Shown here one piece after another: positions 19,611-43,282 of a stretch of DNA of 64,000 bases. The notes under the pieces are model-generated. The model was not told where the DNA came from. It searched no databases and saw only the letters and a program-made list of their open reading frames with translations. The stretch comes from Thauera sp. K11 (GTDB taxonomy: Bacteria; Pseudomonadota; Gammaproteobacteria; Burkholderiales; Rhodocyclaceae): contig NZ_CP023439.1 of NCBI RefSeq assembly GCF_002354895.1, positions 2,356,001-2,420,000 of the forward strand, read 5' to 3'. A program made the translations under genes and the position numbers. The first letter of the stretch is position 1. The number at the start of each line of letters is the position of its first letter.

Positions 19611-19627
19611 CGCTCGAAAGCGGAAAG

Positions 19628-19948: not shown

Positions 19949-19958
19949 CTCGTCTGCC

Positions 19959-20240: not shown

Positions 20241-20340
20241 TGGCAGAATAGTATTGCGTTGCGTGATTAACGTCAAGCGTGATTATCGATGACCCGACCC
20301 GTCGCGCACAAGTGGGCCTTCGCGCCGCGATTTCGCCGCC

Positions 20341-21519: not shown

Positions 21520-21764
21520 TCTTGAATCCCATACCTGCGATGGCCGCGGCACCACGCGTGACCGCCGCAGCCATCCGCCTCGCCAATAACGCGCTGCCCG
21601 CACGACAACATCGCTGCTGTTAGCGTGCCAACGCAACGTTCATTGCCCGGCCTCGGGGCGGTGCTGCATCCGGTATTCGACGAGATGGCGATATTTGCTG
21701 TTCAGTGAAGATTGGGCGGCCACGCAGCTCCGATACCGATCGAGTCTCGGTGCCCGGCAAGCAG
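21520..21764. other. intergenic region, no gene seen
   Basis: A 245-base convergent gap between the solenoid-protein gene and the PIN-domain gene. No coding sequence or clear terminator hairpin was found. Confidence 0.4.
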
Positions 21765-22274
21765 CTACAGGAGCTCGGAAAAGCTGCCGAACGACATCGC
21801 GTAGCGGTTCGCAGCGAGCACTGCCTTGAAGCTATCGGCCTCGGCAACCGAGATGCGCCCTTGTCGAATTGCAGCCAGGAGAATGCCCTCCGTACGCACG
21901 ATGCGCTGCTCGCCGATCAGTTCCACGGCGCGCCGGCGAAACCGCTTCTTCTCGTCCGAAGCAATGTGACTCCCCATGGTCGCAGCGAGAGCGAGGCACG
22001 CTGCTTCGCCCTTGCCCATCACGTCGCGCAACTCGGCGAACAGTTGGAGCGACTCCATCGTGTCGACTACCGGCTGTTCGAGATAGCCCCCTGCCAGCGC
22101 TCCAGAGAGGGCTTCCCTCTGGTCCCGCTCGGTGATCTCGTTCACCACTTCCGCTGGCACGAGGAACCGATAGCCGTCGAGTTGGCCGAGAAGCGGCAAC
22201 TGACCGATCCGAATCAGATTGATGAGAACGTTCGCGTCGGTGACGACGACGATTGTCTCGGCCTTCGTAGCCAT
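21765..22274 (-). CDS. PIN-domain protein, probable toxin partner of XRE-ImmA protein
   Basis: A 169-aa PIN-fold protein of the DUF3368 type. The N-terminal VVVTDANVLINLIRI, the central GKGEAACLALA and the later HIASDEKK contain the acidic residues that bind Mg2+ or Mn2+ in PIN RNases. Such proteins with an upstream XRE/ImmA-IrrE partner form type II toxin-antitoxin pairs (the COG2856-PIN class, from general knowledge). It begins 24 bases after the stop of that partner, so the two are probably one transcript. Confidence 0.8.
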   Translation of the reverse strand: MATKAETIVVVTDANVLINLIRIGQLPLLGQLDGYRFLVPAEVVNEITERDQREALSGALAGGYLEQPVVDTMESLQLFAELRDVMGKGEAACLALAATMGSHIASDEKKRFRRRAVELIGEQRIVRTEGILLAAIRQGRISVAEADSFKAVLAANRYAMSFGSFSELL

Positions 22275-22298
22275 GGGATGCGCTCGTGCCGCGACGGA

Positions 22299-23528
22299 TC
22301 AATCCAGCTTCGCCGAGGCGAGCGCATCCGCAAGGTCGTTCCGACCGAGGTGGACCATGGCCGCGAGCTCCGTGAGCTTGCTGCGCGTGATCTCTTCACG
22401 CCGATAAGCCTCCAGGGCGAGGGCAAGGAAGCGCCGCCGGAAATCCTCGCGCGACGTGTCTTCCTGCGGCGCTTCCGGCGCCGCAAGGAAGTTCGCGAGC
22501 GCCTGACCTGCCCCACTGTCTTCGTCGCCCTTCAGGCGCTGGAACTCGCGCTCGTCGATCAGGCGCAGGTTCTTCATCCGATACAGCGCCGAGATTCGGC
22601 TCGCCCCGAAGTGGTGAGCGAGCAATGCGACGTCGTAGAGCTGAATGTCCTGAGATCCCGGCGCGGCGCGCTGCTCGACCTGCACCGCCTCGGCCTCGTC
22701 GAACACGGCGATCTGCGCGCGGCTTGCGCCGCCCTTGCCGAACGCGACCACGAACTGCTCCACACCCTCCGCCGGCATCAGGAACTCCGCGGCGAAGGCA
22801 TTTGCCCGGACCTCCAGTAGATCCGATCGGTTCTCTGCCCGGCTGATAGCGCCGGCCCGGCCTCGATCCAGCAGGACGTGGCCGTACTCGTGAGCCAGAG
22901 AGAAGCGTCGTCGAACGGCTGCGTGCTTCGCGTTGATGACCACGAAGACGCCGATCGTTCCGTCGACGAGCGTCAGCCCCGAGATGTTCTCGGGGAGTGC
23001 GACGGCGCCGGTGCGCACGCCCTGGGCCTCCAGCAGATCGCTCAGGTCACCGATCGGCGCCACGCCGAGCCCCAGCCGCTGCCGCTCCTCGGTGGCCACC
23101 TTTTGTCCCTGCTGGATGGCGTCCCAGCGCGATTTCGGGGCGGGGAGTTCGTACGACGCGGTGAGCAGCTGAACCCGATCGATGCCGAGCAGGCGCTCGA
23201 GGTTGGTCAACTCGTGGCCGAGCGCCAAGCTGTCCTGCAACGCCTTCAGCAGGTCAGCCTGCTCTGCGAGTTGGGCGTCGGAGCGAAACAGCGCTGCGAG
23301 GGCGTCGCGCTCGACGAAGGACTCGGCGAAGAACGACTTGATGTCGCGCCCTACGGCGTGAGCGATTCGGTCCAGCTCCAGGCTGGAAACGGACCGGGTT
23401 CCAGCCTCGATCTGGCCGACCGCAACCCGGTTCAGGTCAGCGAACTCGCCCAACTGCTCCTGCGTAAGGCCGCAGGTTTCCCTGGCGGACCGGATTCGCC
23501 GCCCCAGCTCCTCTCGGGTCAGTCCCAT
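22299..23528 (-). CDS. XRE regulator fused to ImmA/IrrE-family metallopeptidase
   Basis: A 409-aa protein with an N-terminal helix-turn-helix (residues about 4-60: GLTQEQLGEFADLNRVAVGQ then IEAGTRSVSSLEL) and a zinc-peptidase domain with HExxH in FSLAHEYGHVLLDR and a downstream Glu in NAFAAEFLMP. The family pattern is repressor plus protease in one chain. The start is the ATG at 23528 (MGLTREELG); another ATG at 23540 is possible. It is co-directional with the PIN gene and divergent from the CBASS operon, with which it shares an 82-base promoter region holding an inverted repeat. Confidence 0.88.
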   Translation of the reverse strand: MGLTREELGRRIRSARETCGLTQEQLGEFADLNRVAVGQIEAGTRSVSSLELDRIAHAVGRDIKSFFAESFVERDALAALFRSDAQLAEQADLLKALQDSLALGHELTNLERLLGIDRVQLLTASYELPAPKSRWDAIQQGQKVATEERQRLGLGVAPIGDLSDLLEAQGVRTGAVALPENISGLTLVDGTIGVFVVINAKHAAVRRRFSLAHEYGHVLLDRGRAGAISRAENRSDLLEVRANAFAAEFLMPAEGVEQFVVAFGKGGASRAQIAVFDEAEAVQVEQRAAPGSQDIQLYDVALLAHHFGASRISALYRMKNLRLIDEREFQRLKGDEDSGAGQALANFLAAPEAPQEDTSREDFRRRFLALALEAYRREEITRSKLTELAAMVHLGRNDLADALASAKLD

Positions 23529-23545
23529 GCGCACCCCCATGTGGC

Positions 23546-23585
23546 TTGAACTATGATGTCTTTTCTTGCTATACTTGTCAAGAAA
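23546..23585. promoter_or_regulatory. divergent promoter and inverted-repeat operator
   Basis: The gap between the XRE-ImmA gene and the CBASS operon holds a perfect inverted repeat, TTTCTTG (23562-23568) and CAAGAAA (23579-23585), with a 10-base centre. On the plus strand TTGAAC (23546) and TATACT (23570) are 18 bases apart, a good sigma-70 promoter for the CBASS side, and the operator covers its -10. On the minus strand TTGACA (23582-23577) is a perfect -35 for the XRE-ImmA side, with a weak -10 near CATCAT. A repressor bound here would block both directions. Confidence 0.7.
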
Positions 23586-23610
23586 CGGATGATCAGAAAG
23601 GAAATTTGAC

Positions 23611-23973
23611 ATGAACGCTGCCACCCACCAGTGGACCGCCGCCCTCGCCGTAGGGGCCGTCCTGCATTCCGGCGAGGTCGAGCGCGGCGAGGCCACCGCG
23701 TGGCCCCTGGCCGGTGGCGGACTCGCCGCCCTGCTGACGAAACTGCCCGATGTGCTCGAACCGGCGGTCCATCCGCATCACCGCCAGTTCTTTCACAGCG
23801 TCGCCTGCGCGGCCCTGGTGACGGCCGGCTGGAAGGCTCTTCACGAGTGGCAGCCGCAGTCCGAGGAAGGCCGCTTCTGGCGCAAGGTCGCGATGATCGG
23901 AGCCGGCGCCTACCTCTGCCACCTCGCCCTCGATGCGCTCACCGCGCGTTCGCTTCCGCTGGTCGGGCGGTAG
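23611..23973 (+). CDS. YdjM/DUF457-like membrane metal-hydrolase protein, head of CBASS operon
   Basis: A 120-aa protein resembling the YdjM (DUF457) family of small membrane-associated putative metal-dependent hydrolases. The His in AATHQW, the LPD motif, HHRQFFHS and the late YLCHLALDALTARSLPL are the family marks, with hydrophobic helices at about 35-45, 63-75 and 93-105. It has a good ribosome binding site (AAAGGAA, 8 bases before ATG) and lies 17 bases before the CD-NTase gene, so it is the first gene of the operon. Its job in CBASS is unknown to me; it may be an accessory effector or simply co-located. Confidence 0.7.
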   Translation: MNAATHQWTAALAVGAVLHSGEVERGEATAWPLAGGGLAALLTKLPDVLEPAVHPHHRQFFHSVACAALVTAGWKALHEWQPQSEEGRFWRKVAMIGAGAYLCHLALDALTARSLPLVGR

Positions 23974-23990
23974 CGCCTTGGAGCACGGAA

Positions 23991-25193
23991 ATGCACGCTG
24001 ACCCCAGGTTGATCGAATTCGCCACGCACAAGCGGCGCATGCTGGTCGGGATTCTCGACGCGCTGTTCGCGCAGATCGACCTGACCGACAGCCAGTACGA
24101 GACGGCGAAGGCTCGCTACGAAGCCGTCAGCGCCTGGCTCGCCGAAGGCGAATCACCGTTTCTACAGGACGCCGCGATCTACGCGCAGGGATCGATCGCG
24201 GTGGGCACCGCCAACAAGCCGATCGGCCGCGCCGAGTTCGACGTTGACCTCGTTTGCCACCTGCCCTCCGTCGGCGCCACCTCCAATCCCGCCGCGGTCA
24301 AGGCATTGATCGGCGATCGACTCAGGGCTCACGCCACCTACGCATCGATGCTCGAAGAGAAGCAGCGCTGCTGGCGGCTGTGCTATGCGAACGAGTTCCA
24401 CTTGGACATCACGCCCTCGATTCCCAATCCGGCATGCGGCAACGGCGGCGAGCTGGTGCCCGACAGGGCGCTGGCGGCGTGGAAGCCCACCAACCCAAAG
24501 GGATATGCGGCCCGTTTCGAGCAGTACGCAGCCCTGCGGCGTAGGTTGACCCTGCGCGAGGCCGCGATCGCTGCCAAGCGTGCAGACGTTGAAGATTTTC
24601 CCGAGCAGGAGATGCGCAAGCCTCCGTTGAAGCGGATCGTGCAACTTCTGAAGCGGCATAGAGATGTGTCGTTTGCCGCCCCTGGACGCAGCGAGCTCGC
24701 GCCGATCAGCGTCATCCTGACGACGCTCGCGGCGCGATCCTATGCAGACTGCATCACCCGCTTCGTCTACGCGGACACCTACGAGCTGATCCTCGATGTC
24801 GTGCGCCGCCTGCCGGAGTTCATCCAGGTCGGCGAGCGGAACGGAAGGCCGTTCTACTTCATCGAGAACGAGACCACGACCGGGGAGAACTTCGCAGACA
24901 AGTGGAATCTCGATCCGCGCCTCCCCCGAGCCTTCTACGGCTGGCACAGGGATGCGGTCGCCATGCTCGAAGGGCTGATCGCCCTCGAAGGCAAGGACCG
25001 ACTCGGCGAGGCGCTTCAGAAGTCCTTCGGCGCGAGCCAGGAGGCCGTTCGCGCTGCAATGGCGCCGCTTGCGACGACCGTCGGCAATGCCCGTGCGGCG
25101 GGCTCCCTGCTCGTCGCGCCCAGCTTGGGACTCGTCACCTCGCCCGCCGTCGGGCGTGTGACCGTTCCGCCGCACACCTTCTTCGGCCGGTAG
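23991..25193 (+). CDS. CBASS CD-NTase (cGAS/DncV-like nucleotidyltransferase)
   Basis: Synthesises a cyclic di- or trinucleotide alarm signal after phage infection. The nucleotidyltransferase core is visible: YAQGSIAVGT (GS motif), AEFDVDLVCH (paired Asp ligands) and the third acidic site in HLDITPSIPN. The C-terminal half is helical with the segment PPLKRIVQLLKRHRD, typical of the SMODS/CD-NTase family. The length of 400 aa and the ATG at 23991 with GGAG 8-11 bases upstream fit. It is followed by an E2-like gene and a patatin gene, making a short type II CBASS. I cannot assign the product nucleotide. Confidence 0.9.
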   Translation: MHADPRLIEFATHKRRMLVGILDALFAQIDLTDSQYETAKARYEAVSAWLAEGESPFLQDAAIYAQGSIAVGTANKPIGRAEFDVDLVCHLPSVGATSNPAAVKALIGDRLRAHATYASMLEEKQRCWRLCYANEFHLDITPSIPNPACGNGGELVPDRALAAWKPTNPKGYAARFEQYAALRRRLTLREAAIAAKRADVEDFPEQEMRKPPLKRIVQLLKRHRDVSFAAPGRSELAPISVILTTLAARSYADCITRFVYADTYELILDVVRRLPEFIQVGERNGRPFYFIENETTTGENFADKWNLDPRLPRAFYGWHRDAVAMLEGLIALEGKDRLGEALQKSFGASQEAVRAAMAPLATTVGNARAAGSLLVAPSLGLVTSPAVGRVTVPPHTFFGR

Positions 25194-25194
25194 C

Positions 25195-25629
25195 TTGCGG
25201 AAGGTCCGCGATCCTTGGCTCAGCCCGGAACAGCAGTGGTTGCGTCTTCGGGCCAGCTTGGTGAGCCGTGGCCACGGCGTCGTGAAGCGGGGTGAGTTGA
25301 TCTGGAATCTCGAAGTCAGACCTTCGCCCTTGGGCCGCCTGTACAAGGTCCGTATTCGCTACCGCCGTGCCGATACGCCGGAAGTTGTGGTCGTCTCACC
25401 CGACCTCAACGAGTTGGCGGACGGCCGCCCTCTGCCGCACGTGTACTCGACGAAACCAGTGCGGCTGTGTCTCTTCGATCCGCAGACCGCGGAATGGTCA
25501 CCCGGCGCCGCGATTGCCGACACGATCGTGCCGTGGACCTACGAGTGGTTGTTCTACTTCGAAGAGTGGCTCGTCAGCGACGAGTGGAAGGGCGGCGGGC
25601 GTCATCCGGAGGTACGCGATGCGTCCTAG
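25195..25629 (+). CDS. CBASS E2-like (Ubc-fold) protein
   Basis: A 144-aa protein resembling the stand-alone E2-like conjugation protein of short type II CBASS. Marks are VVSPDLNELADGRPLPHVY, the Cys in VRLCLFDP (expected catalytic cysteine, replacing the usual HxYxxGxLCL layout), and ADTIVPWTYEWLFYFEEWL with GEW-like DEWKGGGRHPE near the end. In this class E2 is thought to prime the CD-NTase by covalent modification. It starts with TTG one base after the cyclase stop, so translation is probably coupled; it overlaps the patatin gene by 11 bases. Confidence 0.85.
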   Translation: MRKVRDPWLSPEQQWLRLRASLVSRGHGVVKRGELIWNLEVRPSPLGRLYKVRIRYRRADTPEVVVVSPDLNELADGRPLPHVYSTKPVRLCLFDPQTAEWSPGAAIADTIVPWTYEWLFYFEEWLVSDEWKGGGRHPEVRDAS

Positions 25630-26635
25630 ACGACGAATCCTTGCTCTCGATGGCGGAGGGATCAAAGGCGTCCTCGAGGCGGCGTTCCTCGATGCTGTCG
25701 AGACCGCAACCGGAAAGCGGATCGCGGACCACTTCGACCTGATCGCCGGTACGTCAACCGGGGGCATCATCGCGCTGGGGCTTGGTCTCGGTCTATCCGC
25801 GCGCGACATCGTCGAGTTCTACGTTCGGGAAGGGCCGCGCATCTTCGATCAGGCCGAACCGATCGGCGCGAACGGCATTGCGCAGCGGTGTGCGGCCATG
25901 CTGCGCAAGTGGAGGCGCCGAGGCCAACAGCTCGCGTGGCCGAAGTACGAGCCAGACTACCTTCGTGTTGCGCTGACGGCGGCGTTCGGATCGAAGACGC
26001 TCGGCGAGAGCAGGCTCCGCCTCGTGATTCCCGCCTACCACGGCGACAAAGACGATCTCTACGTCTTCAAGACGCGTCACCATCCTCGATTGCAGGTGGA
26101 CTGGCGGGAACGAGCCGTCGATGTTGCTCTGGCGACGGCGGCTGCACCAACCTACTTCCGGGCGCATGTCATGCCGAGCGGTGCGCCGCTGATCGATGGT
26201 GGCATTTGGGCCAACAACCCAGCGGGCGTCGCCGCGGTTGAAGCGCGCAGCATCCTGGGCTGGAAGGACGACGACCTCTTCATACTCAGTCTGGGATGCA
26301 CCGAAGAATTCTTCGATGTCCCGATCTCGGCCGGATACAAGGGCTTGCTGCTGAAGTCGAGTGAGCTGTTCATGCGCGGACAGTCCCGGGCGGCGGCGGG
26401 AACGGCGAAGCTTCTCAGCGGCCATACCGAGGCGGCCCCGCGGTACTTCCGGCAACAGGTCGCTGTTCCGGCAGGCAAGTTCTCTCTGGACCGCGTCGAG
26501 ATGATCGACCGCCTGCGAGGCCTTGGAGCGAGCTGCGCACGGGACGCTCTGCCAACTCTGCAGGCGAACTTCCTGGACACGCCCGCCGAACCGTTCGTAC
26601 CGGCCGATGTGAACGACTCCGCCCCGCGTCGTTGA
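25619..26635 (+). CDS. capV: CBASS patatin-like phospholipase effector
   Basis: Cyclic-nucleotide-activated phospholipase that degrades the membrane of infected cells (CapV class). The 338-aa protein starts MRPRRRILALDGGGIKG with the oxyanion motif, then the nucleophile elbow GTSTGGI and the catalytic Asp in PLIDGGIWANNP. There is no signal peptide, as expected for a cytosolic effector. The ATG at 25619 has GGAGG 6 bases upstream and overlaps the E2 gene end. It is the last gene of the operon; an ICE gene follows in opposite orientation. Confidence 0.9.
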   Translation: MRPRRRILALDGGGIKGVLEAAFLDAVETATGKRIADHFDLIAGTSTGGIIALGLGLGLSARDIVEFYVREGPRIFDQAEPIGANGIAQRCAAMLRKWRRRGQQLAWPKYEPDYLRVALTAAFGSKTLGESRLRLVIPAYHGDKDDLYVFKTRHHPRLQVDWRERAVDVALATAAAPTYFRAHVMPSGAPLIDGGIWANNPAGVAAVEARSILGWKDDDLFILSLGCTEEFFDVPISAGYKGLLLKSSELFMRGQSRAAAGTAKLLSGHTEAAPRYFRQQVAVPAGKFSLDRVEMIDRLRGLGASCARDALPTLQANFLDTPAEPFVPADVNDSAPRR

Positions 26636-26719
26636 TCGCCTCCCGTGTCGGGCAGTCCTGACGCTGGACATTCGCGGGCAGCGACGACGCGTCGGCCAAA
26701 GCAGCGACGCACGACTGAC

Positions 26720-32282: not shown

Positions 32283-32836
32283 CTTCGCAATCAAGATTTA
32301 CCGTCAACTCGAAAGTCGACCTGACGGTAAATGTCTGCCGGGAACTCGACGTGATCTTTTTACCGTCAGATTTACCGTCAGGTTGCAGGGCATCCCAGCG
32401 ATAGATCTCGATAGACCTCGACAGACATTTACGCCTTGAATCAATGCATTGCGTCCCGTTTCCGATAGTTCTCGATAGACCCCGATCGATCGAGACCTAC
32501 TCCCACTCAATCATCAACAGCTTCGCTAAGTCGTTGTCTGGCTTGATGCTCAGCTCGTAGCGCCCGAGTTTTACCGTCATCCTTACCGTCATTTTGACTG
32601 GGATCCCCAAGCGCAGCATTCACCATCAATCGACATCTATCGAGGACAGTCGGCGCTTCCACGATGGCCAGCTTTCGAGATCTATCGAGGTCTATCGCGT
32701 CCTCGCATGCGTTCCCCGAAGGCGTGAGCAGACCCCTTGCTCCTCGTGAAGAGATCAAGACGGCGCCGGCATCAAACGCCTTAGGTTGTTGTCGCATCGA
32801 GCCTTTAGGGCAGATTTTTTACCGTCACTGCGTTTC
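32283..32836 (+). repeat. att-like direct repeat, right copy
   Basis: Second copy of the 19060-19610 repeat, clearly diverged, so not a recent duplication. The identical 18-bp core TCCCACTCAATCATCAAC is at 32501-32518. TTACCGTCA 9-mers lie at 32298, 32360, 32372, 32571, 32583 and 32819, two of them as pairs 12 bases apart, matching the left copy. TCGATAG motifs precede the core and CTATCGA motifs follow it. On the minus strand the core is the end of a short frame finishing IEWE-stop, like the end of GuaA. It marks the outer end of the second ICE. Confidence 0.7.
32497..32580 (-). other. possible 27-codon frame across the att core
   Basis: From the ATG at 32580 (itself part of a TTACCGTCA unit) a small frame reads MTVKLGRYELSIKPDNDL and ends LMIEWE-stop at 32497. 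In the left copy the equivalent end reads KPINDLPKPLMIEWE-stop at 19271, but its upstream part is frameshifted. The ending resembles the C-terminus of GMP synthetase (GuaA), a frequent ICE integration site. It may be a retained target-gene tail rather than a gene. Confidence 0.3.
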
Positions 32837-32948
32837 CGTACGAACGCAGCGCCACTGGCGATTGTCCTTCAGCTTCCCACGCATCAGCAGGCCAAGGCAA
32901 CTTCCGTCCGCGTTGAAGTGACAGCACGACTGCGTACTGCTCAAAGCA

Positions 32949-35246
32949 CTACTCGCGACTCGCAACATTCTGGGAATCCGCCAACTGCAGAGTGCGACCT
33001 CCACGCGTCGCGGTCCGCACATCCCACACAGCCTCCGTCTCAATGACCTCGGCGAAGCGTTCCGCGCTGAAGCCGTCGGGGTACAGACTCCAGCCGGACT
33101 CGCTTGCATCTGCTTCACGCGCCTCGTCGACTCCGTAGCTCCCGGAAAGCAGTCCTGCAGGATCGTTCAGCAGGTGACGATCGTCGCGAAGCGCGATAAG
33201 CAGCTCTTCGACGGAGACCTTCAGGAAGCCGCCGAACCGTTGGTGGTCGCATTCGATGCATGTGTCGGCGATCCACGCGTGTTGTCGGGTCGGAATCAGC
33301 CACTCGGACAACCCCAGCACCGCGCGAAACCCAGGATCCGAGGCGATGGCCACCGATACCGCTTCGACCTTGCGGCGAAGCTGCTGTCCGGCTTTGCGAA
33401 GCGTTGTGGTCGCATGCAACCACGCGTCCCGCTGAGATCGCCGCATGAACGTCGACTTCACCTCGATGACGAACAAATGCCCGCCGAGCACGGCGATCAG
33501 ATCCACCTCGCCGGCGTCATCCGGGCCGCGCGGCGGCACCCAATTGAGCAGCGTCCTGAACCCGCGCTTCTCGAGCAGCCTGGCGAGCCCGGCTTCGATC
33601 CGCTGCGCCTCGTCGCGAGCCTGCCCGCGGCGAGCGCCGAGCCGCCTCAGGTTGTTGATCGCCGCGGTGCTGTTGTTCTGCATCCCGACGACCCACGGCA
33701 GCTGCACCAGCGTCGCCCCGAACTTGAGGACGGGCCGCTCGAACAGGTGGGGCTGAAGGCCGGGCTCATTGCGCTGAAGCCGCTCTGCCGTCGCGACCAT
33801 GTCGTAGGTCCAGAAGTCCAGGATCGCGGATGCCATCCTTGGATTGCCCGCGGGCTCCGACTTCGTGACCGTCCAGCCGGTAATGTTGGACACCTTCGAG
33901 TCTCGGCTCGACCAGGTGAGTGGCATTCGGTTCTGGAGCCCTTCGCGCAGCCCGTCCATGGTCAGACGCTGCAGCGCTGCGACCCAGTCCCCCGATGCAT
34001 CAAAGCGCTCTGCAAAGGCTGCCAGGAAGTCCTGCTGGAAGAACACCGACATCAGGTTGAGCGACAGCAGCGCCCGGAAGAGATCGACCGTATCTCCGGA
34101 ATCGCACGTCACTTCGTCGGCGACACCGTATGCCTCACGCAGTCGAAGCTGCGCTTGCAGCGCCCGCAGCCATGCCAGCCGGTTTGCCTCAGCGCTTTCC
34201 GGTCGACCGATCTTCCATGTAGTGGGATCGGCGGCGACCTGCTCGACGTAAGTGTCAAGGGCACGGTGGAACCAATAGCCATGCAGGCGCTCGAGCTTCA
34301 GTCCGTCGCGTTGCCACGCGGCCCGCGCCGCCGGATCGACCTCGACGATCTCAAGCCGATTGCCCCGCCGCTCGAACCGAATGCCATCGTCGTAGCTGAA
34401 CGCGTCGGAGGACCTGGAGATGAACTCGTTCAACTCGATCTGCGCGTCCATGAGCGCGTGAAAGGCGCGCAGGTTCCGAAGGGCTTCGCCCGCGCTCGCC
34501 GTGCCGGATTCGAAGAGGATCGGTCGAAGATGCCGCGCGAGCGACCTCCCGATGTTGTCGTCCGTCAGCTTTAGGGATGAGGTGCCGGCCTCTGCGAGCT
34601 TCCACGCGAGCAGATCGCCGAGTGCATCCCAGGTGACCTGGACATCAGCCCCAGAGGACGGTGCGGGCGCCTTTACGTTGAAGTCCTTTGGAACGAGCAC
34701 TTCGAAGGCGTAGAGGCTGGCGTATAGCAAGAGCTCGAAGACCGACAACGCCGCGAGCTGCGCCTTCTGTGCTTCCAGCGCCGCGACCCGTTCGCGGTGC
34801 GCCCCGGTAAACACGTCGAGCACACCGCACAACTCGGCCACCGCTTCGCATTCGGACGCCGCCTCGTCCACCTCGGATCGTCGTGGAGAGTGCGGGTTCA
34901 GAACGAGCCCGGAATGCCTGACCGCGCGTATCAACGCCTCGGGCGCCTCGCGCGCGACCCGCGTCACCAATCGATCGGCAGTGACAGGCTCCTGCCCGAG
35001 GTACCGCGCCAGGGCGAGCGACATCGCTTCGGCGCCCCACGCGTCGGGAGGGCAGCCTTTCACAACGTCGCTAGACCAGAAGAGGCTGTCGCGCTCCTTC
35101 TTTGTGAGCTTCCTCTTGCCAACGGGTAACGGCTTTCCGTCGAGGTAGGCGGTCCCGACTCGCTCGACGGCGATCCGCTGCGAAACACCGTCGCCGATCA
35201 AGCGAACGAACAGGTCGTCGTAGTAATTCGTCGCGCGCTGAACCAT
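32949..35246 (-). CDS. large protein with C-terminal PD-(D/E)XK nuclease-like domain
   Basis: A 765-aa protein that I cannot name. Residues about 575-600 read GEVDLIAVLGGHLFVIEVKS, the Asp...Glu-x-Lys core of the restriction-endonuclease fold, followed by helices with RKAGQQLRRKV. The first 550 residues are helical, without recognised motifs or membrane spans. It is the last gene of a minus-strand series starting with an XRE regulator and ietAS, 38 bases after the preceding gene, so probably part of that operon. A nuclease effector role is inference. Its 3' end lies 112 bases inside the att-like repeat. Confidence 0.75.
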   Translation of the reverse strand: MVQRATNYYDDLFVRLIGDGVSQRIAVERVGTAYLDGKPLPVGKRKLTKKERDSLFWSSDVVKGCPPDAWGAEAMSLALARYLGQEPVTADRLVTRVAREAPEALIRAVRHSGLVLNPHSPRRSEVDEAASECEAVAELCGVLDVFTGAHRERVAALEAQKAQLAALSVFELLLYASLYAFEVLVPKDFNVKAPAPSSGADVQVTWDALGDLLAWKLAEAGTSSLKLTDDNIGRSLARHLRPILFESGTASAGEALRNLRAFHALMDAQIELNEFISRSSDAFSYDDGIRFERRGNRLEIVEVDPAARAAWQRDGLKLERLHGYWFHRALDTYVEQVAADPTTWKIGRPESAEANRLAWLRALQAQLRLREAYGVADEVTCDSGDTVDLFRALLSLNLMSVFFQQDFLAAFAERFDASGDWVAALQRLTMDGLREGLQNRMPLTWSSRDSKVSNITGWTVTKSEPAGNPRMASAILDFWTYDMVATAERLQRNEPGLQPHLFERPVLKFGATLVQLPWVVGMQNNSTAAINNLRRLGARRGQARDEAQRIEAGLARLLEKRGFRTLLNWVPPRGPDDAGEVDLIAVLGGHLFVIEVKSTFMRRSQRDAWLHATTTLRKAGQQLRRKVEAVSVAIASDPGFRAVLGLSEWLIPTRQHAWIADTCIECDHQRFGGFLKVSVEELLIALRDDRHLLNDPAGLLSGSYGVDEAREADASESGWSLYPDGFSAERFAEVIETEAVWDVRTATRGGRTLQLADSQNVASRE

Positions 35247-35284
35247 GATCGGATAACCGGCATCGGCGATTCAGTGAGAGACGA

Positions 35285-36583
35285 TCATGGGGTCGTCGCT
35301 TCTTCTTTGCCGGGCTTCTCGAAGTTGGCGGGCACGCGCTGGAAGTACTTCTTCAGTGCCCAGCCAGTGCGATGCTCCTGGTAGAGCCAGTGGTAGTACT
35401 CGAACTCGATCCACTTGCCGCGTTCCGAGATCGGCCGGACCACCTCTCGTGGCAGCAACTTGCCCTGAACAGCCGACCCGTGCTCCGGCTTGGACCGAAC
35501 TAGGGCCACGCGATCCAAAACGACGAATCGCTCCTCCTGCCGTTTGGCTTCTTGCACCAAGGCCCTCTCCACCAACTTCGTGAGGGCATCGATCGTCTTT
35601 CGCTGCGCCTCCAGATTGGTGCCAAGCGCCTCGATCCTCTCGGTCTGCCCTGCGAGTGTTCTATCGGTCGCTGCCTGCCAGCGTGAAGAGCTGAGCTCTT
35701 GGTAGAGCGGGATCAGTACTGCCAGGATGAAACCCAATAGTGCCATCAACTCCAAGGTCTTGCGGCTGAGACCGAGCCCGTCTTCTTGCTGAACGAACTG
35801 GACGATGACTGAGCCATCGGCGTTGATGCCCATGGCGGCGAGCTGCGCCTTGATGCCCTCCGGCCCCAGCACCTTGGCAAGCGTGGCAGCAGACGCTGCA
35901 TCGATGACAGGCAACGACAGCCTGCCCAATCGCTCCTGCAGCGCCTGCAACGCGCCAATCGAGTCGAGCAGGGGTTGAGGAACGATCCAGCGCTTGTTGG
36001 CCTCCTCGAAGCTCTTCATGAGCTGCCCGATGCCACTACTGACCGAGGCATCCGCAAGGATCTTCCGGGTGCTCTCGATCGAGCCCTCGATGTCCGCGTG
36101 CATGGCCTTCAGCACGGCACTGGATCCTGTGGCCTGCTCGATTAGCTTGGCAAACTGCTCCGAGGCGGCAAGCGGCTTTGCGAGGTCCTCCAGCATCCGC
36201 TGGATCGCACTGTCCTTCAGAAGCGAACTGCGAATGTCCTGAAGGGGTTCGAGCATTCTTCTGATGCTCTCTTGTTCGGTCCTCTGGACTTCCTGCCATC
36301 GCTTTGCCATCTGGACAGCCAGCGAATTCTCAGGAATGAGCAGCTTCATCTGTTCTGGCAAGGAGTAGGCCTGCAGCTCCTTTGCCTGCTTACTCATCTG
36401 GGCCGCAAGAGACGTGTCTCCCACCAGCTTCTTCATCTGCTCTGCGAGGCTGTGGCTTTGGGCCATGGCCGCCATCCAAGAGGCGCGCTCCAGTTCCATT
36501 CTGCGGAGTTCACTGGACACACTGCCGCCCAACAAGCTACCTATCTTGTCGAGTTCCAAGGTCTTCAGGGCGTCGCTCGGCAC
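35285..36583 (-). CDS. membrane-anchored coiled-coil protein with SH3-like C-terminus, ietAS-linked
   Basis: Unknown protein, 432 aa from a GTG at 36583, four bases after the ietS stop. An ATG-initiated longer frame exists but overlaps ietS extensively. The N-terminal 250 residues are helical with heptad-like Leu/Gln/Ala repeats (SLAEQMKKLV, SLAAQMSKQ, SLPEQMKLL, SLAVQMAKR repeat a similar unit). One transmembrane segment follows (MALLGFILAVLIPLY), a second coiled coil, and a C-terminal SH3-like segment ending HRTGWALKKYFQRV. The tight spacing suggests joint expression with ietAS, perhaps as a membrane partner. Confidence 0.75.
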   Translation of the reverse strand: MPSDALKTLELDKIGSLLGGSVSSELRRMELERASWMAAMAQSHSLAEQMKKLVGDTSLAAQMSKQAKELQAYSLPEQMKLLIPENSLAVQMAKRWQEVQRTEQESIRRMLEPLQDIRSSLLKDSAIQRMLEDLAKPLAASEQFAKLIEQATGSSAVLKAMHADIEGSIESTRKILADASVSSGIGQLMKSFEEANKRWIVPQPLLDSIGALQALQERLGRLSLPVIDAASAATLAKVLGPEGIKAQLAAMGINADGSVIVQFVQQEDGLGLSRKTLELMALLGFILAVLIPLYQELSSSRWQAATDRTLAGQTERIEALGTNLEAQRKTIDALTKLVERALVQEAKRQEERFVVLDRVALVRSKPEHGSAVQGKLLPREVVRPISERGKWIEFEYYHWLYQEHRTGWALKKYFQRVPANFEKPGKEEATTP

Positions 36584-36587
36584 AATT

Positions 36588-39077
36588 TCAGACCACGATG
36601 GCAACCTTGTTGGCAATGACGGCGTACAGGTCCACTTCGGTCTGCTCGGTGTGGATCGACACGACGAGGCTGTATCTCGCAGGAAGGGCGTACCGCTCGA
36701 GCGCAGGTCGCGAACGCCACCAGCCAGCCGATGGATACACCGCGATGAATCCCCTGCTGGCCAAGTCCGCCGCGGTGCCTTGCCAGACATCGCGATGAAG
36801 CGACCCACGGTGACGCTGCCGCTCCCCCAGGTACCAATCCGTGTCCTTCGGGTTCACCGCATCGCCTTCGTCTTCGCGCTGGGCGGCGGCGTTCACTCGT
36901 GCGATGAAATCCTCCGTTGAAGCATCGAGCGGCCGCTGGACGTCGAACCGGAGGCGGTGCGACGGATAGTGAAACTTCGACGACACGCCTCTCGCCGAAG
37001 GGTTGGGCTCGATGAAGTACGACAGCGTGACGTGCAACTGCACCTCGGCATCGCCGAGGGCCTCCAACTCTTCCTTCGGCCAAGGAAGTGCATGCAAATT
37101 CATGTCGCGACTGACGACACCCCGCTTGTCATCCTTGCCATAGGGATGAACCAGGTCTTCGACCACCAACGTCAGCGAGTTGCCCGCGCTCCAGAGTGCC
37201 CGGTCGAGATCTGGCATCCCCCAGCCGCAGTGCCGGATGAGATTGACATAGTCCTTCTTGGTCGGCTTGGCATTGGCGGGCAGATACATCTGCCGCATTG
37301 CCGGTGTCCACCTGGCGGAGTGAACGATCAGTGCACGAACTGTCTCGGCGCGTAGCTGCGGATAGGCAGCCATGATCTGTGCAGCCATGCGCGCACACTG
37401 CGCCGAGGCGGCGCTGGTGGCGTTGGTCGTCGTGAACAGCCGTTCGTTGGGTCGGTGGTTTGTCGTGAGCAGGTTCAGGCTCGACATCCCCGTCGCCCCT
37501 TGCTGGTCCTTGGCGACGTTCCCGCCTTCAAATACAACGTCGGGCTTAAGCGGCCACGCGGGATCCCAGGTCATGGACGTGGTGGTGTAAGGGCTCAAGC
37601 CGCCATCGGGAGCGATTGCTACGAGCGAATCATGTTCAGTGTCGATCTTGTTCGTGCAGGCGCCCACGGTTATCGCATTCCATGCCTGCCCCGGGTCGTG
37701 AACGAGGTTGGTCGAGAGGCTGTCTGGATACGTCATCCAGGCCCCGTGATCCCGCGTGTTCCCGGCCGCGAGTACGAACAGCCGGGGATACTGGCCGGCG
37801 TCGTCGACGTCTGCTGCCATCCGATCGACCATGGAAGACCATGACGACGGGCGACCGCGGTCGCGGTAGTCAGAGGCGGTGACGGCGGATGCGAACACCC
37901 GTCGTCGATCTGCAGCAGTGACCTCCGGTCGGCTGACAGCCTCGGCGAACAGATAGGCGTGGTGTTTGCTGTCGCCTTCGTTCGACCCCTCGTCTGGCGT
38001 CAGCTTGACCGATTCGAGCCGGTGCGCGACCTGCACCACACCGGTCTCGCCCAAGACGTGCGTCAGGTCTCCATAGGCGGCAAGACCCGCCAAGCCAGTG
38101 CCATGGTTCGCCGTGTCGTCGACTCCCCACGCGGGATTAACCGAGTGCAGATCTGGCTCGGCTAGCAAGGGCTCAAGTAGCGGGTGGCCTCGATTGACGC
38201 CCGTATCGAGGAAGCAGACATGCGGCGCGTCCGTCCCCGCTGGGGCAAACTGCGCTTTTGCCAGCATGTCGTTCATCCACAGTCCCTGCTCTTCGACACC
38301 CATCGCATCGAAGAACTCGGCGGTGTCCTTGGCGCGGCGCAGTTCGGCAACACAGTTCAGCAGCATCACAGACTGTGTGAATTGACCCTGCGACCCGTAC
38401 ATCAGCAGGACGGTCCGTTCGGGGAACTCGGCTTGGTGTTCGCTAACGACACAGCCCGCACGCTCGGCGAGTTTTCTGAAATCTGAGACCACGGCCTGCC
38501 GCGCTGATCGCACCGGCAACCAGACCTCCCACCAGAACGCCTCATCTGGATTCTCCGGCAGTAGACCTGGATCGTCGGTCCAGAGAGCACGCAGCTCAGC
38601 GACGCGGATCGACGCGATCGTGTTCAGCAGGGCCTTGTGATCCAGCGCCTGCCCCTTCTTGCCCTTCTTTTCCTCCAGGTAGTCCGCGACGTAGCGCTCG
38701 AAATGATCGAGCCCTCCATCCGGCACGAAGACGTTGGCGTAGGTGACGTCACCCTCTCTCCGCACGCTCAGCAGTTCGATCTTCTTCCGATCGTCAGCGA
38801 GGCTCTGGAAAGCCAATTCCACGTCGGGCTGACCGACAAACTCAATCTGTAGGCCGAGTCCGCTCTCGAGCGCAAGCTCACGCTGAGACGCAGCCGCGGT
38901 TTCCGCTGCCGCTTCCAGCTCTTGCAGCTGCCCCCGCAGGGCCTGCCCGTGCGCCTGGCGATCGCGCTCAGGCAGCTTCTTCTTTCCGCCGCCCGGACTG
39001 TGCGCAGTGAAGGCGTGCGGTTGCGACGTGCCGTGAAGGAGAAGGTGCGCGCGCTTATCGGCTGCTGGATCCGGCAT
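36588..39077 (-). CDS. ietS: IetS-type subtilisin-like serine protease
   Basis: Protease half of the IetAS anti-phage system. The 829-aa protein has an N-terminal helical region (to about 280), then the S8 peptidase domain: Asp in HVCFLDTGVNRGH, His in DDTANHGTGLAGL, the oxyanion Asn in VLAAGNTRDHG and Ser in TNATSAASAQCARMAAQ. No signal peptide is present, so it acts in the cytoplasm, unlike most subtilases. The start overlaps the end of ietA by 23 bases. Pairing with a AAA ATPase is the defining feature of IetAS. Confidence 0.88.
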   Translation of the reverse strand: MPDPAADKRAHLLLHGTSQPHAFTAHSPGGGKKKLPERDRQAHGQALRGQLQELEAAAETAAASQRELALESGLGLQIEFVGQPDVELAFQSLADDRKKIELLSVRREGDVTYANVFVPDGGLDHFERYVADYLEEKKGKKGQALDHKALLNTIASIRVAELRALWTDDPGLLPENPDEAFWWEVWLPVRSARQAVVSDFRKLAERAGCVVSEHQAEFPERTVLLMYGSQGQFTQSVMLLNCVAELRRAKDTAEFFDAMGVEEQGLWMNDMLAKAQFAPAGTDAPHVCFLDTGVNRGHPLLEPLLAEPDLHSVNPAWGVDDTANHGTGLAGLAAYGDLTHVLGETGVVQVAHRLESVKLTPDEGSNEGDSKHHAYLFAEAVSRPEVTAADRRRVFASAVTASDYRDRGRPSSWSSMVDRMAADVDDAGQYPRLFVLAAGNTRDHGAWMTYPDSLSTNLVHDPGQAWNAITVGACTNKIDTEHDSLVAIAPDGGLSPYTTTSMTWDPAWPLKPDVVFEGGNVAKDQQGATGMSSLNLLTTNHRPNERLFTTTNATSAASAQCARMAAQIMAAYPQLRAETVRALIVHSARWTPAMRQMYLPANAKPTKKDYVNLIRHCGWGMPDLDRALWSAGNSLTLVVEDLVHPYGKDDKRGVVSRDMNLHALPWPKEELEALGDAEVQLHVTLSYFIEPNPSARGVSSKFHYPSHRLRFDVQRPLDASTEDFIARVNAAAQREDEGDAVNPKDTDWYLGERQRHRGSLHRDVWQGTAADLASRGFIAVYPSAGWWRSRPALERYALPARYSLVVSIHTEQTEVDLYAVIANKVAIVV

Positions 39078-40083
39078 GGTTCACTGGCTTGTTGTTCTTC
39101 TCCAGCTTCTCACTCAACCTGCGACGCTCCAGGAGCGCCCGGCCAAGAGCATCCGCATCCACTCGCCCTCCTTCATGCATGACGACCTCCTTGATGGACT
39201 CGTCGACAGCACGGCGGATCTCAGCAAAGCTCAGACCAACGGTCTTCGCCGCCAATGCTTTGGCCGGCAATGGCTTGGGCGCGTAGGTGCCGAGACGAGA
39301 CCGGATGAGAGCCATGGCCTGCTCTGGCGTCGGCAGGTGGTACTCGATGACATCGTCGAAACGACGGAACAACGCGTAGTCGAGGATCTCTGGGTGATTC
39401 GTAGCCGCCAGGATCAGGCTGGTCGACTGGTCGCGCTCGATCATCTGCAGAAAACTGTTGAGCACGCGCCGAATCTCTCCAACGTCGTTGGCCAAGCCGC
39501 GTTGTGACCCGATGGCATCGAACTCATCGAAGAAATAGACCCCGCGCACGTCCGTGACGGCATCGAAGACCTGTCGCAGCTTCGCGGCTGTCTCGCCCAT
39601 GAACTTGGTGATCAATGAATCCAAACGCACAAGGAACAGCGGAACGCCGAGTTCGCCGGCAAGTACGGCTGCAGTCATCGTCTTGCCTGTGCCAGGTGGA
39701 CCCACGAGCAGAAGTTTGCGTCGAGGCGACAAGCCGTGCTCGCGAATGCGGGCATGGAGGCGCTGTTCCTTCATGATTCGCTGCAACTGCTCGAGGACGA
39801 CCGGATCGAGCACCATGTCGGCCAAGCGATTCTTGGGATAACTGACGTCAAGCAGGTTGGCCAGTTCGCCGCGCGGCCGCGCCAGGGGGACGAGCTTTCC
39901 GGGCTCGCCTGAGACGCTGCGCGTCTTGGCGGCATCAATCATGTCGCGCAACTCTTCGGCGAGCTTGCCGTGTCCGGCCTTCGCCTCATGCGCAGCGACC
40001 TGCATGGCGACGGAATAGAACTGGTTGTCGTCCCGACTGATGTGGGACTTGACCAGTGCCTTCAGTTGATCCGCGCTAGCCAT
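39055..40083 (-). CDS. ietA: IetA-type AAA ATPase
   Basis: ATPase half of IetAS, 342 aa. Walker A is VGPPGTGKTMTAAVLAGEL (near residue 125), Walker B YFFDEFDAIGS, the sensor region LILAATNHPEILD and the arginine finger FRRFDDVIEY, all typical of classic AAA proteins. The N-terminal 90 residues are a helical adaptor-like region. It probably recognises an infection signal and delivers substrates or activates IetS; that is inferred from family knowledge. It lies 42 bases downstream of an XRE regulator and overlaps ietS. Confidence 0.9.
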   Translation of the reverse strand: MASADQLKALVKSHISRDDNQFYSVAMQVAAHEAKAGHGKLAEELRDMIDAAKTRSVSGEPGKLVPLARPRGELANLLDVSYPKNRLADMVLDPVVLEQLQRIMKEQRLHARIREHGLSPRRKLLLVGPPGTGKTMTAAVLAGELGVPLFLVRLDSLITKFMGETAAKLRQVFDAVTDVRGVYFFDEFDAIGSQRGLANDVGEIRRVLNSFLQMIERDQSTSLILAATNHPEILDYALFRRFDDVIEYHLPTPEQAMALIRSRLGTYAPKPLPAKALAAKTVGLSFAEIRRAVDESIKEVVMHEGGRVDADALGRALLERRRLSEKLEKNNKPVNHAGSSSR

Positions 40084-40125
40084 CTCTATCCTCCGCTCCC
40101 GCGATACCGATGGCCGAAAGACCCC

Positions 40126-40431
40126 TCAGCCACGGACCGCCCCCGCGTCGTTCGCCGACAGAATCGATGACATGGCCGCGCGCTGCAGTCTCCCGGCCAG
40201 CCGACTATCGATGTTCCCCAGCTCCTTCTCTTCGGATGCCATCACGAAGAGCGCTCCAACAGGCACATGAAGCGCCTCGGCGATCTTCGTGATCATCGAC
40301 AACGTCGGGTCGCGCTTGTTGTTCTCCAGCATCGACAGGTACGACACCGAGCAATCGGCACGCATCGCGACATCGGTCTGAGACACGCCGCGCCGCTTCC
40401 GACAGAGGCGAATAGCATTTCCCACGTCCAT
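40126..40431 (-). CDS. XRE-family transcriptional regulator
   Basis: A 101-aa helix-turn-helix protein (MDVGNAIRLCRKRRGVSQTD, then SVSYLSMLENNKRDPTLSMI), first gene of the ietAS operon. The fold occupies residues about 5-65; the tail is helical. It probably controls this defence operon by binding its own upstream region. It could also be a general ICE regulator, but the 42-base distance to ietA favours the first reading. Confidence 0.88.
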   Translation of the reverse strand: MDVGNAIRLCRKRRGVSQTDVAMRADCSVSYLSMLENNKRDPTLSMITKIAEALHVPVGALFVMASEEKELGNIDSRLAGRLQRAAMSSILSANDAGAVRG

Positions 40432-40578: not shown

Positions 40579-41292
40579 CTACATGTGCTTCTTGTAGTAC
40601 GCCCACTGCACACTCGCCAAGCCGCCGGTCAGCAGCGCGCCCAGCACCACGCACAGCTCCCACTGCACCGGCCCTGGCCACATCAAGAGGGCAACCCCGC
40701 CCAGCCCCAGCACCGCCAACTGCAGGTACTTCGCCCGGTGGTACAGGCTAGCCGACTCGCGTCCGCCGCACGCCCGGCGAATCGCACGCTGGGTGAACCC
40801 ATCGGCGGCGCCGATCGCATACAGAAGCAGGAGCAGCGGCGCGAAGCGCGCCAGGATCGCCGCGCGCACGCCGAGCAGCTGGGTGCCGACCATCGCCGCC
40901 TCGATGCCCTCCCGGTGCGATACGTAGCTGCGCCGCATGATCGTGTCCGGGATCGACAGCGCGGACCCGTTGGCGAACTGTGTGCCCATGTCGTGGATGC
41001 CGGTGGCCTCGAACACGATCGAGTAGAGGGCATTCGCCGGCGCGGTGATGACGCCGGCGCCGGTGCGCTGCTGCGCGGCGAGCGCGATGCCTCGTGCGAG
41101 ATCGTGAGCCAGGAGTTCGCGCAGTCGCTCGACCCCCTGTGGCCAGACCTTGAACACGAACACCCAGTCGACGATCCAGGCGCACAGCAGGAGCGCGACC
41201 AGACCCAAGGCCAGCGAGAAGGCCAGCTTCAGCGGGCTCAACAGCACCCCGGCCAGGGCGCCGTCGTGGAAGGCCGCACTCCTAGACGACAC
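40579..41292 (-). CDS. DUF4400 ICE membrane protein, intact copy
   Basis: Membrane protein conserved next to TraD in this ICE family. From the GTG at 41292, which overlaps the traD end by 11 bases, it has 237 aa. Hydrophobic segments lie near residues 15-40, 138-158 and 187-225. The second copy at 26720 has the same length and high similarity. Its function in transfer is not established. It marks the border between transfer genes and the defence cargo on its left. An alternative upstream ATG at 41352 would put it inside traD. Confidence 0.87.
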   Translation of the reverse strand: MSSRSAAFHDGALAGVLLSPLKLAFSLALGLVALLLCAWIVDWVFVFKVWPQGVERLRELLAHDLARGIALAAQQRTGAGVITAPANALYSIVFEATGIHDMGTQFANGSALSIPDTIMRRSYVSHREGIEAAMVGTQLLGVRAAILARFAPLLLLLYAIGAADGFTQRAIRRACGGRESASLYHRAKYLQLAVLGLGGVALLMWPGPVQWELCVVLGALLTGGLASVQWAYYKKHM

Positions 41293-43282
41293 GCCGACCC
41301 TCCGGTTCGGAGGTGTCCTCCGGCTGATTCCAGGGCCCGTCGAGGCGGGCATGCAGTGTTTCGCCGATCGCGGCGAGGCTCGTCGGCATCAGCGGATCAC
41401 TCGACGCCGAAGGCAGCGGCATCCGGATCTTGTACAGCTGGCCGCCGTGAATGAGCGCGAAGGCCTCGCCCTTGGGCAGTTGAACGAGATCGGTCGGCTC
41501 GAGCATCCGGACGGCTTCCGGAGCGATGCGGTCTTCGTTGCGGCTGGCGAAGTCCGCGAAGTCGACCGGATCGTTGGTGTCGGAGACCGACGACGACACG
41601 ACGGTCGAGACCACGTGCACTTCGGGCAGCTGGCTGGTCAACAGCTCGGCGGTCGCGAGCTCCTTGACCCGCAGCATGATCAGAGTGTTGAAGTTGCCGG
41701 CGATCTGTCCGGCCTTCGCGGGCGAGCCGATACGCGCTTCCACGTCCGACCAGGTCTGCGTGTAGGCCGTCACCTGAAAGCCCGCACCGCCCGCCTTGTT
41801 CAGCAGCGGAATGAACTCGTCGCCGATCAGCTCGTTGAACTCGTCGGCGTGGATCGCGATCCGCCGGGGCGTCACCTCGCCCGGCAGTCCGCGACCGGCG
41901 CCGAACTTGTAGAGGCTGCCGGCCACGCTCGTGAGGTCCGCGAACATGGAGTTCCCCACCGCCGCGGCCACCTCGTAGTCGGAGAGCGCATCCAGCCCGA
42001 CGTAGACGATGCCGCCCAGGTGGATCACCGAGGTCCAGTCGAAGACCGGACGCCAGTCGCTCGAATCGTCGAGCTCCGGCGACAACAGCGACGCGGTGCG
42101 ACCGGTGGTGAGCTTCTCCATCAAGGGCAGCAGCGACGCCACCAGCTTGTCGAAGTGGCTCTTCTCGTAGTTGAGCGTCGATGCGAGCGCGTGGGCGATC
42201 GGGTCGTAGAGCTTCTTGCGCCGCGCGTATTCCACGAGGCTGACCGCACGCGCGCCGCGCGACTGCAGGCCCTTGTCGAGATTCCTCTTGTCGATGGCCA
42301 GCGATCGCAGCTCCTCACGCCAGCCCGCGGCGGCGGGCTCCCGGTCGAGCCAGTACTCGAAGTAGTCGATCAGCAGCGGCTCGACATCGGACGCGTAGCG
42401 GTTGATCTCCTGGTAATCGGGCTTGCGACCGAGCGCCACGAGCGCGCGGGCCATCACGTTCACGAATCGCCAGACGAACTCCTTGAAGGCGGCCGACTGG
42501 CCCTCCGACGGCAACTGGCCCGCAATGCGGGTGGCGACCTCGGTGATGCGCGAGAAGCTGCCCACCGGGTTGTAGCGCGCAGAGATGTCCGGATGCCCGA
42601 GGTGGAACATGAAGAACTCGCCGCCCCGCCCCGCCCGTTCGGCTTCCGCGAAGACACGGCGCAGCAGATCGACGTCGCCCTTCGGGTCGAAGACGATCAC
42701 CACCTCGCCGCGACGGATGTCCTGGGCGATCAGCAACTCCGCCAGGCGCGTCTTGCCGACGCGTGTGGTGCCCAGCACCAGCGTGTGCCCGACTCGATCC
42801 TCCAGGTCCATCCAGATCTCGGTCTCGGCGGGCTCGACACCGTGGATCGCGGGGTCCCCGCCGACGCTACCGGTGCCTTCCTCTGCGGGCACGAACGCCG
42901 CCAACGCGGCTGCGAAGCCTCGGCCGTGCAGCAGTGGCTGGTTCGCTGGAAGGCGCGCCTCGAACAAGCGCTGGGTGTGACGCTGGTCCCACCGAAACCC
43001 GCGCCCCAGAAAGAGCCGATCCGCCGACCAGGGAATGTCGGCGGAGTGCAATTCGTAGCGCCGCCGGCGGCGCAGGTTGGCGCTATAGCGCAGCGTGCTC
43101 AGTCCGGCCGCGCCGCGCCACGCCGCGTGGCCCAGCAGCAGGCCGGCAAGCGCCAGGTGCCAGGGAGGAGAGACCAGAAAGAGCCCCGGGCTGCTCAGTA
43201 CCAGGGCCGCGCCCAGTGCCGACACCGAGGCCGCGCCGAGTTCGTGCGCCGGCCGCAGCCGGCCTTCGAGCGGATAGGCCAT
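41282..43282 (-). CDS. traD: conjugative coupling protein TraD
   Basis: Type IV coupling protein that links the relaxosome to the transfer channel, an ATPase of 666 aa from the ATG at 43282 (MAYPLEGRLRPAHELGAAS). Two membrane helices lie near residues 20-55. Walker A is LGTTRVGKTRLAE (near 170) and Walker B IAIHADEFNELIGD (near 477). The C-terminus is PTDLVQLPKGEAFALIHGGQ to the GRRVV end. It belongs to the SXT/PFL-type TraD group. The start overlaps the traI stop as TGATG, and its stop overlaps DUF4400. Confidence 0.93.
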   Translation of the reverse strand: MAYPLEGRLRPAHELGAASVSALGAALVLSSPGLFLVSPPWHLALAGLLLGHAAWRGAAGLSTLRYSANLRRRRRYELHSADIPWSADRLFLGRGFRWDQRHTQRLFEARLPANQPLLHGRGFAAALAAFVPAEEGTGSVGGDPAIHGVEPAETEIWMDLEDRVGHTLVLGTTRVGKTRLAELLIAQDIRRGEVVIVFDPKGDVDLLRRVFAEAERAGRGGEFFMFHLGHPDISARYNPVGSFSRITEVATRIAGQLPSEGQSAAFKEFVWRFVNVMARALVALGRKPDYQEINRYASDVEPLLIDYFEYWLDREPAAAGWREELRSLAIDKRNLDKGLQSRGARAVSLVEYARRKKLYDPIAHALASTLNYEKSHFDKLVASLLPLMEKLTTGRTASLLSPELDDSSDWRPVFDWTSVIHLGGIVYVGLDALSDYEVAAAVGNSMFADLTSVAGSLYKFGAGRGLPGEVTPRRIAIHADEFNELIGDEFIPLLNKAGGAGFQVTAYTQTWSDVEARIGSPAKAGQIAGNFNTLIMLRVKELATAELLTSQLPEVHVVSTVVSSSVSDTNDPVDFADFASRNEDRIAPEAVRMLEPTDLVQLPKGEAFALIHGGQLYKIRMPLPSASSDPLMPTSLAAIGETLHARLDGPWNQPEDTSEPEGRRVV

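Follow-up and report, generated by a model that had tools for sequence, protein, structure and literature searches.

IetAS has been described from pTiC58, from SGI1 and from a mycoplasma (TA132/3). In relatives of IetAS, IetS is described as a toxin and IetA as its antitoxin (PMC8562856, PMC5006074). It has also been reported that Hachiman, AVAST, Lamassu and DRT systems recruit nuclease-protease pairs, made up of an MBL nuclease and a trypsin-like or caspase protease (Tuck et al., PMC12799240). The embedding of defense genes inside other defense operons ('guilt by embedding', cited in PMC12988326) is already published, and includes TgvAB within a type I restriction-modification (RM) operon of V. 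cholerae (PMC11411939) and NERD/PD-(D/E)XK nucleases acting as backup effectors beside BREX cores, with NERD found also in PglW (PMC12839542). In this study, a 64,000-nucleotide stretch of Thauera sp. K11 (contig NZ_CP023439.1, positions 2,356,001 to 2,420,000; the window) was analyzed. It carries an IetAS pair followed by two additional genes, here called riders, one for an SH3-like protein and one for a NERD protein. The interpretation that we favor, with moderate confidence, is a nested defense operon in a cargo slot of an integrative and conjugative element (ICE), in which an XRE-IetA-IetS core is joined by two largely autonomous rider effectors.

Architecture of the IetAS cassette

The cassette consists of five open reading frames (ORFs):

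40126..40431, minus strand: XRE/HTH_3 regulator, first cassette gene (Pfam HTH_3, 3e-15)
39055..40083, minus strand: ietA, AAA+ ATPase (PADLOC PDLC02196, 4e-76; Pfam AAA, 8e-30)
36588..39077, minus strand: ietS, subtilase (S8) (PADLOC PDLC02198, 2e-41; Peptidase_S8, 1e-52)
35285..36583, minus strand: rider gene 1, SH3 protein of 432 aa, GTG start (SH3_3, 2e-4)
32949..35246, minus strand: rider gene 2, NERD protein of 765 aa (PADLOC NERD, 7e-16; Pfam NERD, 0.002)

When these minus-strand ORFs were rechecked, the coordinates, strand, overlap and gaps given in an earlier note on this DNA all held: ietA and ietS overlap by 23 bp, and gaps of 4 bp and 38 bp separate ietS from the SH3 gene and the SH3 gene from the NERD gene, respectively. 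String searches located GPPGTGKT at residue 128 and DEFD at residue 186 of IetA, which we take to be the Walker A and Walker B motifs. The strings DTGV, HGTG and TSAAS begin at residues 291, 325 and 554 of IetS and presumably contain the catalytic Asp, His and Ser. Like the described IetAS systems, the locus has overlapping ietA and ietS frames, an AAA+ ATPase adjoining a subtilase, each with its motif strings, and matches to both the IetA and the IetS model of PADLOC. Unlike them, it has two further genes, and its proteins fall under the NCBIfam equivalog cut-offs for IteA and IteS (210 vs. 510 bits for IetA, 83 vs. 900 bits for IetS). Since the PADLOC models were matched and the NCBIfam cut-offs were not reached, the window IetA and IetS represent a divergent branch and not the type pair. 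A PDB sequence search matched IetA to Cdc48/p97-type AAA ATPases and gave no match at 1e-4 for IetS. The XRE gene likewise heads an xre-ietA-ietS arrangement on plasmids of Burkholderia savannae and Cupriavidus sp. USMAA2-4. No sigma-70-like promoter was detected in a weak scan of 32300-40700, and terminator-like sites were in no excess over shuffles in a similarly weak scan of the same interval.

The gene order is retained in related copies. All five genes, in the same order and with IetS-SH3 and SH3-NERD spacings of 4 bp and 38 bp, were found in a Piscinibacter metagenome-assembled genome (MAG; L002), and a 3.1-kb contig (L001) holds IetS-SH3-NERD with the same 4- and 38-bp gaps. The five-gene operon of the earlier note is thus real and kept in related copies. 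In one pairwise comparison between the window and L002, dS was 0.10-0.36 over the five genes, and dN/dS was 0.06 for XRE, 0.04 for IetA, 0.07 for IetS, 0.17 for SH3 and 0.21 for NERD; all five look constrained, the SH3 and NERD genes least. Based on the recurring order and gaps together with dN/dS values of 0.04-0.21, the five-gene arrangement is more than chance. Because the window and L002 are colinear over 12.5 kb at 92% identity, ICE genes included, they carry the same mobile element, and L002 was rejected as independent support. L001 has 87% DNA identity on a contig labeled Planctomycetota, which indicates either a recent transfer or misbinning; for so short a MAG contig, which may be misbinned, this origin was not taken at face value.

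In the mechanism that we propose as the simplest, IetA would restrain the subtilase toxin IetS, under the XRE regulator, and the five genes would be transcribed together. The riders would borrow the regulation of the host operon and add an effector or sensor step of their own: the NERD nuclease may attack DNA once infection or foreign DNA is sensed, and the SH3 protein may work at the membrane.

Relatives of the NERD and SH3 genes

The 765-aa protein has a C-terminal NERD/PD-(D/E)XK domain, and its first 540 residues are without a Pfam match at E <= 1. The Pfam NERD model scored 19.1 bits, under its gathering score of 22.1. The D...ExK core of PD-(D/E)XK/NERD nucleases is present (D582, E595, K597; PADLOC NERD, 7e-16), and E551, D582, E595 and K597 are invariant across 29 aligned NERD sequences, down to 24% identity. 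The nuclease domain that had been noted in this protein is this NERD domain. Since D582, E595 and K597 are invariant down to 24% identity, the protein is likely an active nuclease. A PDB sequence search gave weak Hjc-like matches (E 0.07-0.27). The domain is of the same NERD/PD-(D/E)XK type as that of the BREX auxiliary nucleases and PglW (PMC12839542); unlike these, the window protein is stand-alone, with a long N-terminus of unknown kind, and belongs to a family common to IetAS and Wadjet operons.

Homologs of the NERD protein numbered 538 at E <= 0.001 among 8000 scored candidates. Thirteen NERD loci were counted, with L058 and L059 taken as one locus (genome G342) and L011 taken with L092; left out were a 43-residue scrap (L089), two records with domain-level matches only (L078, L079) and an unopened record (H7). 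IetS adjoins NERD in two loci (L001, L002), and the remaining 11 have no IetS match, other protease types not having been sought there. Several loci place NERD with other defense systems. In the genome of the window itself (L055, G000:C1 near 4421578; 8164-17528), a second NERD gene stands in fifth position in a complete Wadjet operon, directly after jetA-jetB-jetC-jetD with a 4-bp overlap; it is 48-56% identical to the window NERD and is frameshifted, by decay or assembly error. A literature search that reached few subscription papers or bioRxiv preprints turned up no publication linking a NERD domain to Wadjet. In Pseudomonas veronii (L007), NERD lies 150 bp ahead of WYL-BrxA-BrxB-BrxC-PglX. 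It is found about 0.2 kb downstream of PD-Lambda-1 in Vibrio harveyi (L006), as the third gene past PDC-S06 in Arcobacter (L009) and as the second gene upstream of PDC-M63B in L088, and in G342 an AbiEii gene begins 1.3 kb past the NERD end.

The 432-aa protein has one predicted transmembrane (TM) helix at residues 276-294 (hydropathy 2.14), so that the membrane character proposed for it earlier is backed by hydropathy. A 19-residue stretch with hydropathy >=1.6 was present in 58 of 59 aligned SH3 family sequences. The C-terminus is SH3_3-like (2e-4, under the Pfam cut-off), the N-terminal 270 aa are of unknown kind, and a PDB sequence search gave no useful match. Homologs numbered 336 at E <= 0.001 among 8000 scored candidates. 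Four of them (P0040, P0056, P0085, P0094) were observed to have an additional C-terminal tail of about 45 residues, in which no Pfam match was found for P0040 and P0094; the tail recalls, in our assumption, those of antitoxins.

Nine SH3 loci were counted outside the window (L001, L002, L003, L004, L056, L057, L086, L087 and a remnant in G342). IetS adjoins SH3 in L001 and L002, and no IetS match was found in the other seven. Two genomes (L056, L087) have the SH3 relative inside a type I RM operon, flanked by HsdS and HsdR; in L056 it overlaps hsdS by 8 bp. In L003 it precedes by 84 bp a PglX-like gene, whose product is matched by a type IIG model as well. This contig begins 12 bases ahead of the SH3 match, so that the upstream neighbor of the SH3 relative is unseen. 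Further relatives were detected downstream of genes for a kinase-like protein and an SNase (L086), in the vicinity of a resolvase and a SIR2-like gene, with 100 N just upstream (L004), and, as a weak relative (26%), upstream of an Abi_C gene (L057). In G342, which belongs to another family of the class, only the last 35 aa of the SH3 protein remain.

Because relatives of the riders adjoin several unrelated defense systems, they are interpreted as reusable add-ons and not as fixed parts of IetAS. As in the published cases of embedding (PMC12988326, PMC11411939), extra genes lie inside a defense operon or at its end, including between hsdR and hsdS; unlike those, none of the PADLOC v2.0.0 models matched the SH3 family, of which two members were scanned, and NERD proteins were matched solely as 'Viperin-associated NERD' or not at all. 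That neither gene is catalogued as an IetAS component, as the earlier note had supposed, therefore agrees with PADLOC v2.0.0. Its view of them as dedicated IetAS partners was not supported, 7/9 SH3 and 11/13 NERD loci being without an IetS match, L003 and L005 among them with little upstream sequence. In this small sample the genes occurred independently of ietAS in most cases, the very outcome that the earlier note had set against its proposal in asking for a co-occurrence search. A fixed five-gene IetAS system was rejected, as both added families lack a visible IetS in most sampled loci.

The earlier note had also suggested that the protease releases a membrane or nuclease effector. In such a scheme, a disturbed IetA would free IetS, which would cleave NERD and/or SH3 and yield a suicidal nuclease or membrane effector. 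L001 and L002 retain the order and spacing of the genes, the riders evolve faster (dN/dS 0.17, 0.21) than IetA and IetS (0.04, 0.07), and nuclease-protease pairs with a pro-nuclease have been recruited by several defense systems (PMC12799240), all of which speak for it. As in those pairs, a nuclease and a protease stand side by side in the window, and the genes are common to unrelated defense systems. The published pairs, however, combine an MBL nuclease with a trypsin-like or caspase protease and not a NERD/PD-(D/E)XK nuclease with an S8 subtilase, NERD also occurs without a nearby IetS match, and the described IetAS relatives function as two-gene toxin-antitoxin pairs (PMC8562856, PMC5006074). 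In addition, relatives of NERD and SH3 occupy Wadjet, BREX and type I RM operons that have no IetS match (other protease types not sought), which argues against protease release or activation as an obligate step. Given the NERD loci without any IetS match, the NERD family as a whole cannot depend on gating by IetS. As relatives of both riders sit in operons without an IetS match, probably neither requires cleavage by IetS, and we regard protease gating as unlikely. A similarly improbable version is that, in this ICE lineage, a toxin-antitoxin protease became coupled to a NERD pro-nuclease and the SH3 membrane protein. Protease-gated nuclease logic would then have been invented here independently, out of two general-purpose rider families that are also used in Wadjet, BREX and type I restriction operons.

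It is also conceivable that SH3 and NERD form a two-gene module of their own, which moved in behind IetAS as a unit. A contig end in G342 (L058 1-330) shows the last 35 aa of SH3 and then the start of NERD, with efflux genes upstream and no IetAS, as this would require; the end of NERD is on another contig (L059 1-9601), together with a repeated ICE flank and the AbiEii and PrimPol/helicase genes. Against it, the G342 SH3 gene is a remnant, six SH3 loci (L003, L004, L056, L057, L086, L087) have no NERD match, and 10/13 NERD loci have no SH3 match. With each found without the other, the single module was set aside as quite unlikely.

Several observations weigh against two autonomous riders in a nested operon. 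No defense neighbor was recognized in five of the 13 NERD loci (L005, L008, L010, L011, L071), for which not every neighbor was scanned, and the L005 record shows only 1 kb upstream of NERD. The recurrence of each rider family in or at the edge of different defense operons is a raw count, uncorrected for the rate at random genes. Many of the relatives are distant (23-49% identity), and their function may differ. In the SH3 tree, the IetAS-linked copies belong to a single clade of 11 rows (support 100/100), eight of them with unknown neighbors; the copy beside PglX is placed outside it, and those from the two HsdS-HsdR operons pair with each other on a deep, separate branch. In the NERD tree, built by a quick method and with long branches, the window NERD groups with L002; both belong to a 66-row group that does not include the Wadjet, BREX, PD-Lambda-1 and PDC-S06 copies. 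The sampled trees are consistent with a single joining of the riders to IetAS. With one SH3 clade and the window/L002 grouping of NERD, the five genes stayed together in this lineage and could be interdependent.

Under the nested-operon interpretation, two protein families recur beside mechanistically unrelated defense systems, one without a PADLOC v2.0.0 model and the other named there only as Viperin-associated. Should the riders work by themselves, they would be portable effectors overlooked by annotation pipelines. Should they work together with the host system, one could use them to study how IetAS, Wadjet, BREX or restriction complexes can trigger one effector family; the genome of the window has one NERD in an IetAS operon and another, the frameshifted copy, in a Wadjet operon. 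Separately, two Aeromonas plasmid regions, L008 and L010, are close relatives. In L010 (9611-14181), an IS21-type element splits the NERD gene, the L008 relative being unsplit at that place, and a beta-lactamase gene was observed on the same plasmid as the L010 NERD.

Mobile setting of the cassette

The ICE has two homologous cargo slots, and the cassette occupies one of them. The following features define the slots:

40579..41352, minus strand: left flank of the cargo slot, gene for a TIGR03747-like ICE membrane protein (score under the model cut-off)
32498..32828, no strand: right flank of the cargo slot, element of about 330 bp
19603..26719, no strand: sister cargo slot with the same flanks and other cargo
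23631-25193, plus strand: SMODS/CBASS-type cyclase ORF in the sister slot (PDLC00780, 5e-111)
22299-23696, minus strand: HTH-IrrE protein in the sister slot

A copy of the left flank is found at 26720-27485 (84.6% identity) and one of the right flank at 19272-19602 (80.7%). The right flank is also present twice in G342 (L059, 79% for both copies), around AbiEii and PrimPol/helicase genes. The left flank was found in L002, and the right-flank element was not found there. Cargo may be exchanged by recombination between the repeated flanks. No CBASS effector was identified in the sister slot. The CBASS-type cyclase there and the low dN/dS of both riders count in favor of the nested-operon interpretation.

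The location in an ICE cargo slot raises the possibility that the operon serves mainly in ICE maintenance or exclusion (addiction or incompatibility), with riders that act on rival plasmids or ICEs and not on phages. A NERD relative in an operon of Wadjet, an anti-plasmid system, points in the same direction. The IetAS of Agrobacterium is cited as a toxin-antitoxin pair for plasmid stability, and its SGI1 homolog as a functional pair (PMC8562856, PMC5006074). On the other side, the cyclase in the sister slot is of the CBASS type, an anti-phage kind, and PADLOC and NCBIfam also list IetAS as anti-phage. A role mainly in ICE maintenance is considered very unlikely.

Distribution and embedding of IetAS

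Among 369 genomes of the class, 24 matched IetS (some weakly), four SH3 and two NERD, and SH3 or NERD beside IetS was found only in the genome of the window. In one further genome (G169), a distant IetS and a relative of SH3 are found on separate contigs. In wider sets, for which IetS was not searched, SH3 was detected in 3/235 and NERD in 2/235 genomes of the order, and NERD in 4/398 genomes of the phylum, two of these at domain level only. Searches of the orders of G342 and G169, with only four and eight genomes, gave nothing useful, and no near DNA match was found in E. coli genomes. IetS was matched by 485 plasmid records (376 over >=80% of its length) and NERD by eight, vs. none for SH3. 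Seven of the eight plasmid NERD records and four IetS records were inspected, and none had both in the fetched stretch. The five closest plasmid IetS relatives are 63-75% identical; the three inspected (B. savannae, Cupriavidus sp. USMAA2-4 and C. necator, the last with ietA-ietS) are without SH3 and NERD and have no close same-strand gene after ietS. Viral contigs gave one NERD match and no SH3 match, and neither was detected in 50,697 phage records.

IetAS itself was found as an embedded module. The type I RM operon of L062 (2934-11987) carries IetA and IetS between its HsdM and HsdS genes; the successive gaps are 45, 6 and -4 bp. A type III Mod gene follows IetS after 2 bp in L061 (998-9559), with Res further on, and after 8 bp in L065 (4554-9769). 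The IetS proteins of these three loci are distant (24-26% to the window), yet the pairs are full PADLOC IetA and IetS matches. Given this embedding in RM operons, nesting is a habit of some IetAS pairs too. In L047 (4899-10490; IetS 55%), a gene for a 690-aa UvrD-like helicase begins 3 bp after IetAS, and a weak RelE/HigB-like match was observed near the N-terminus of this helicase.

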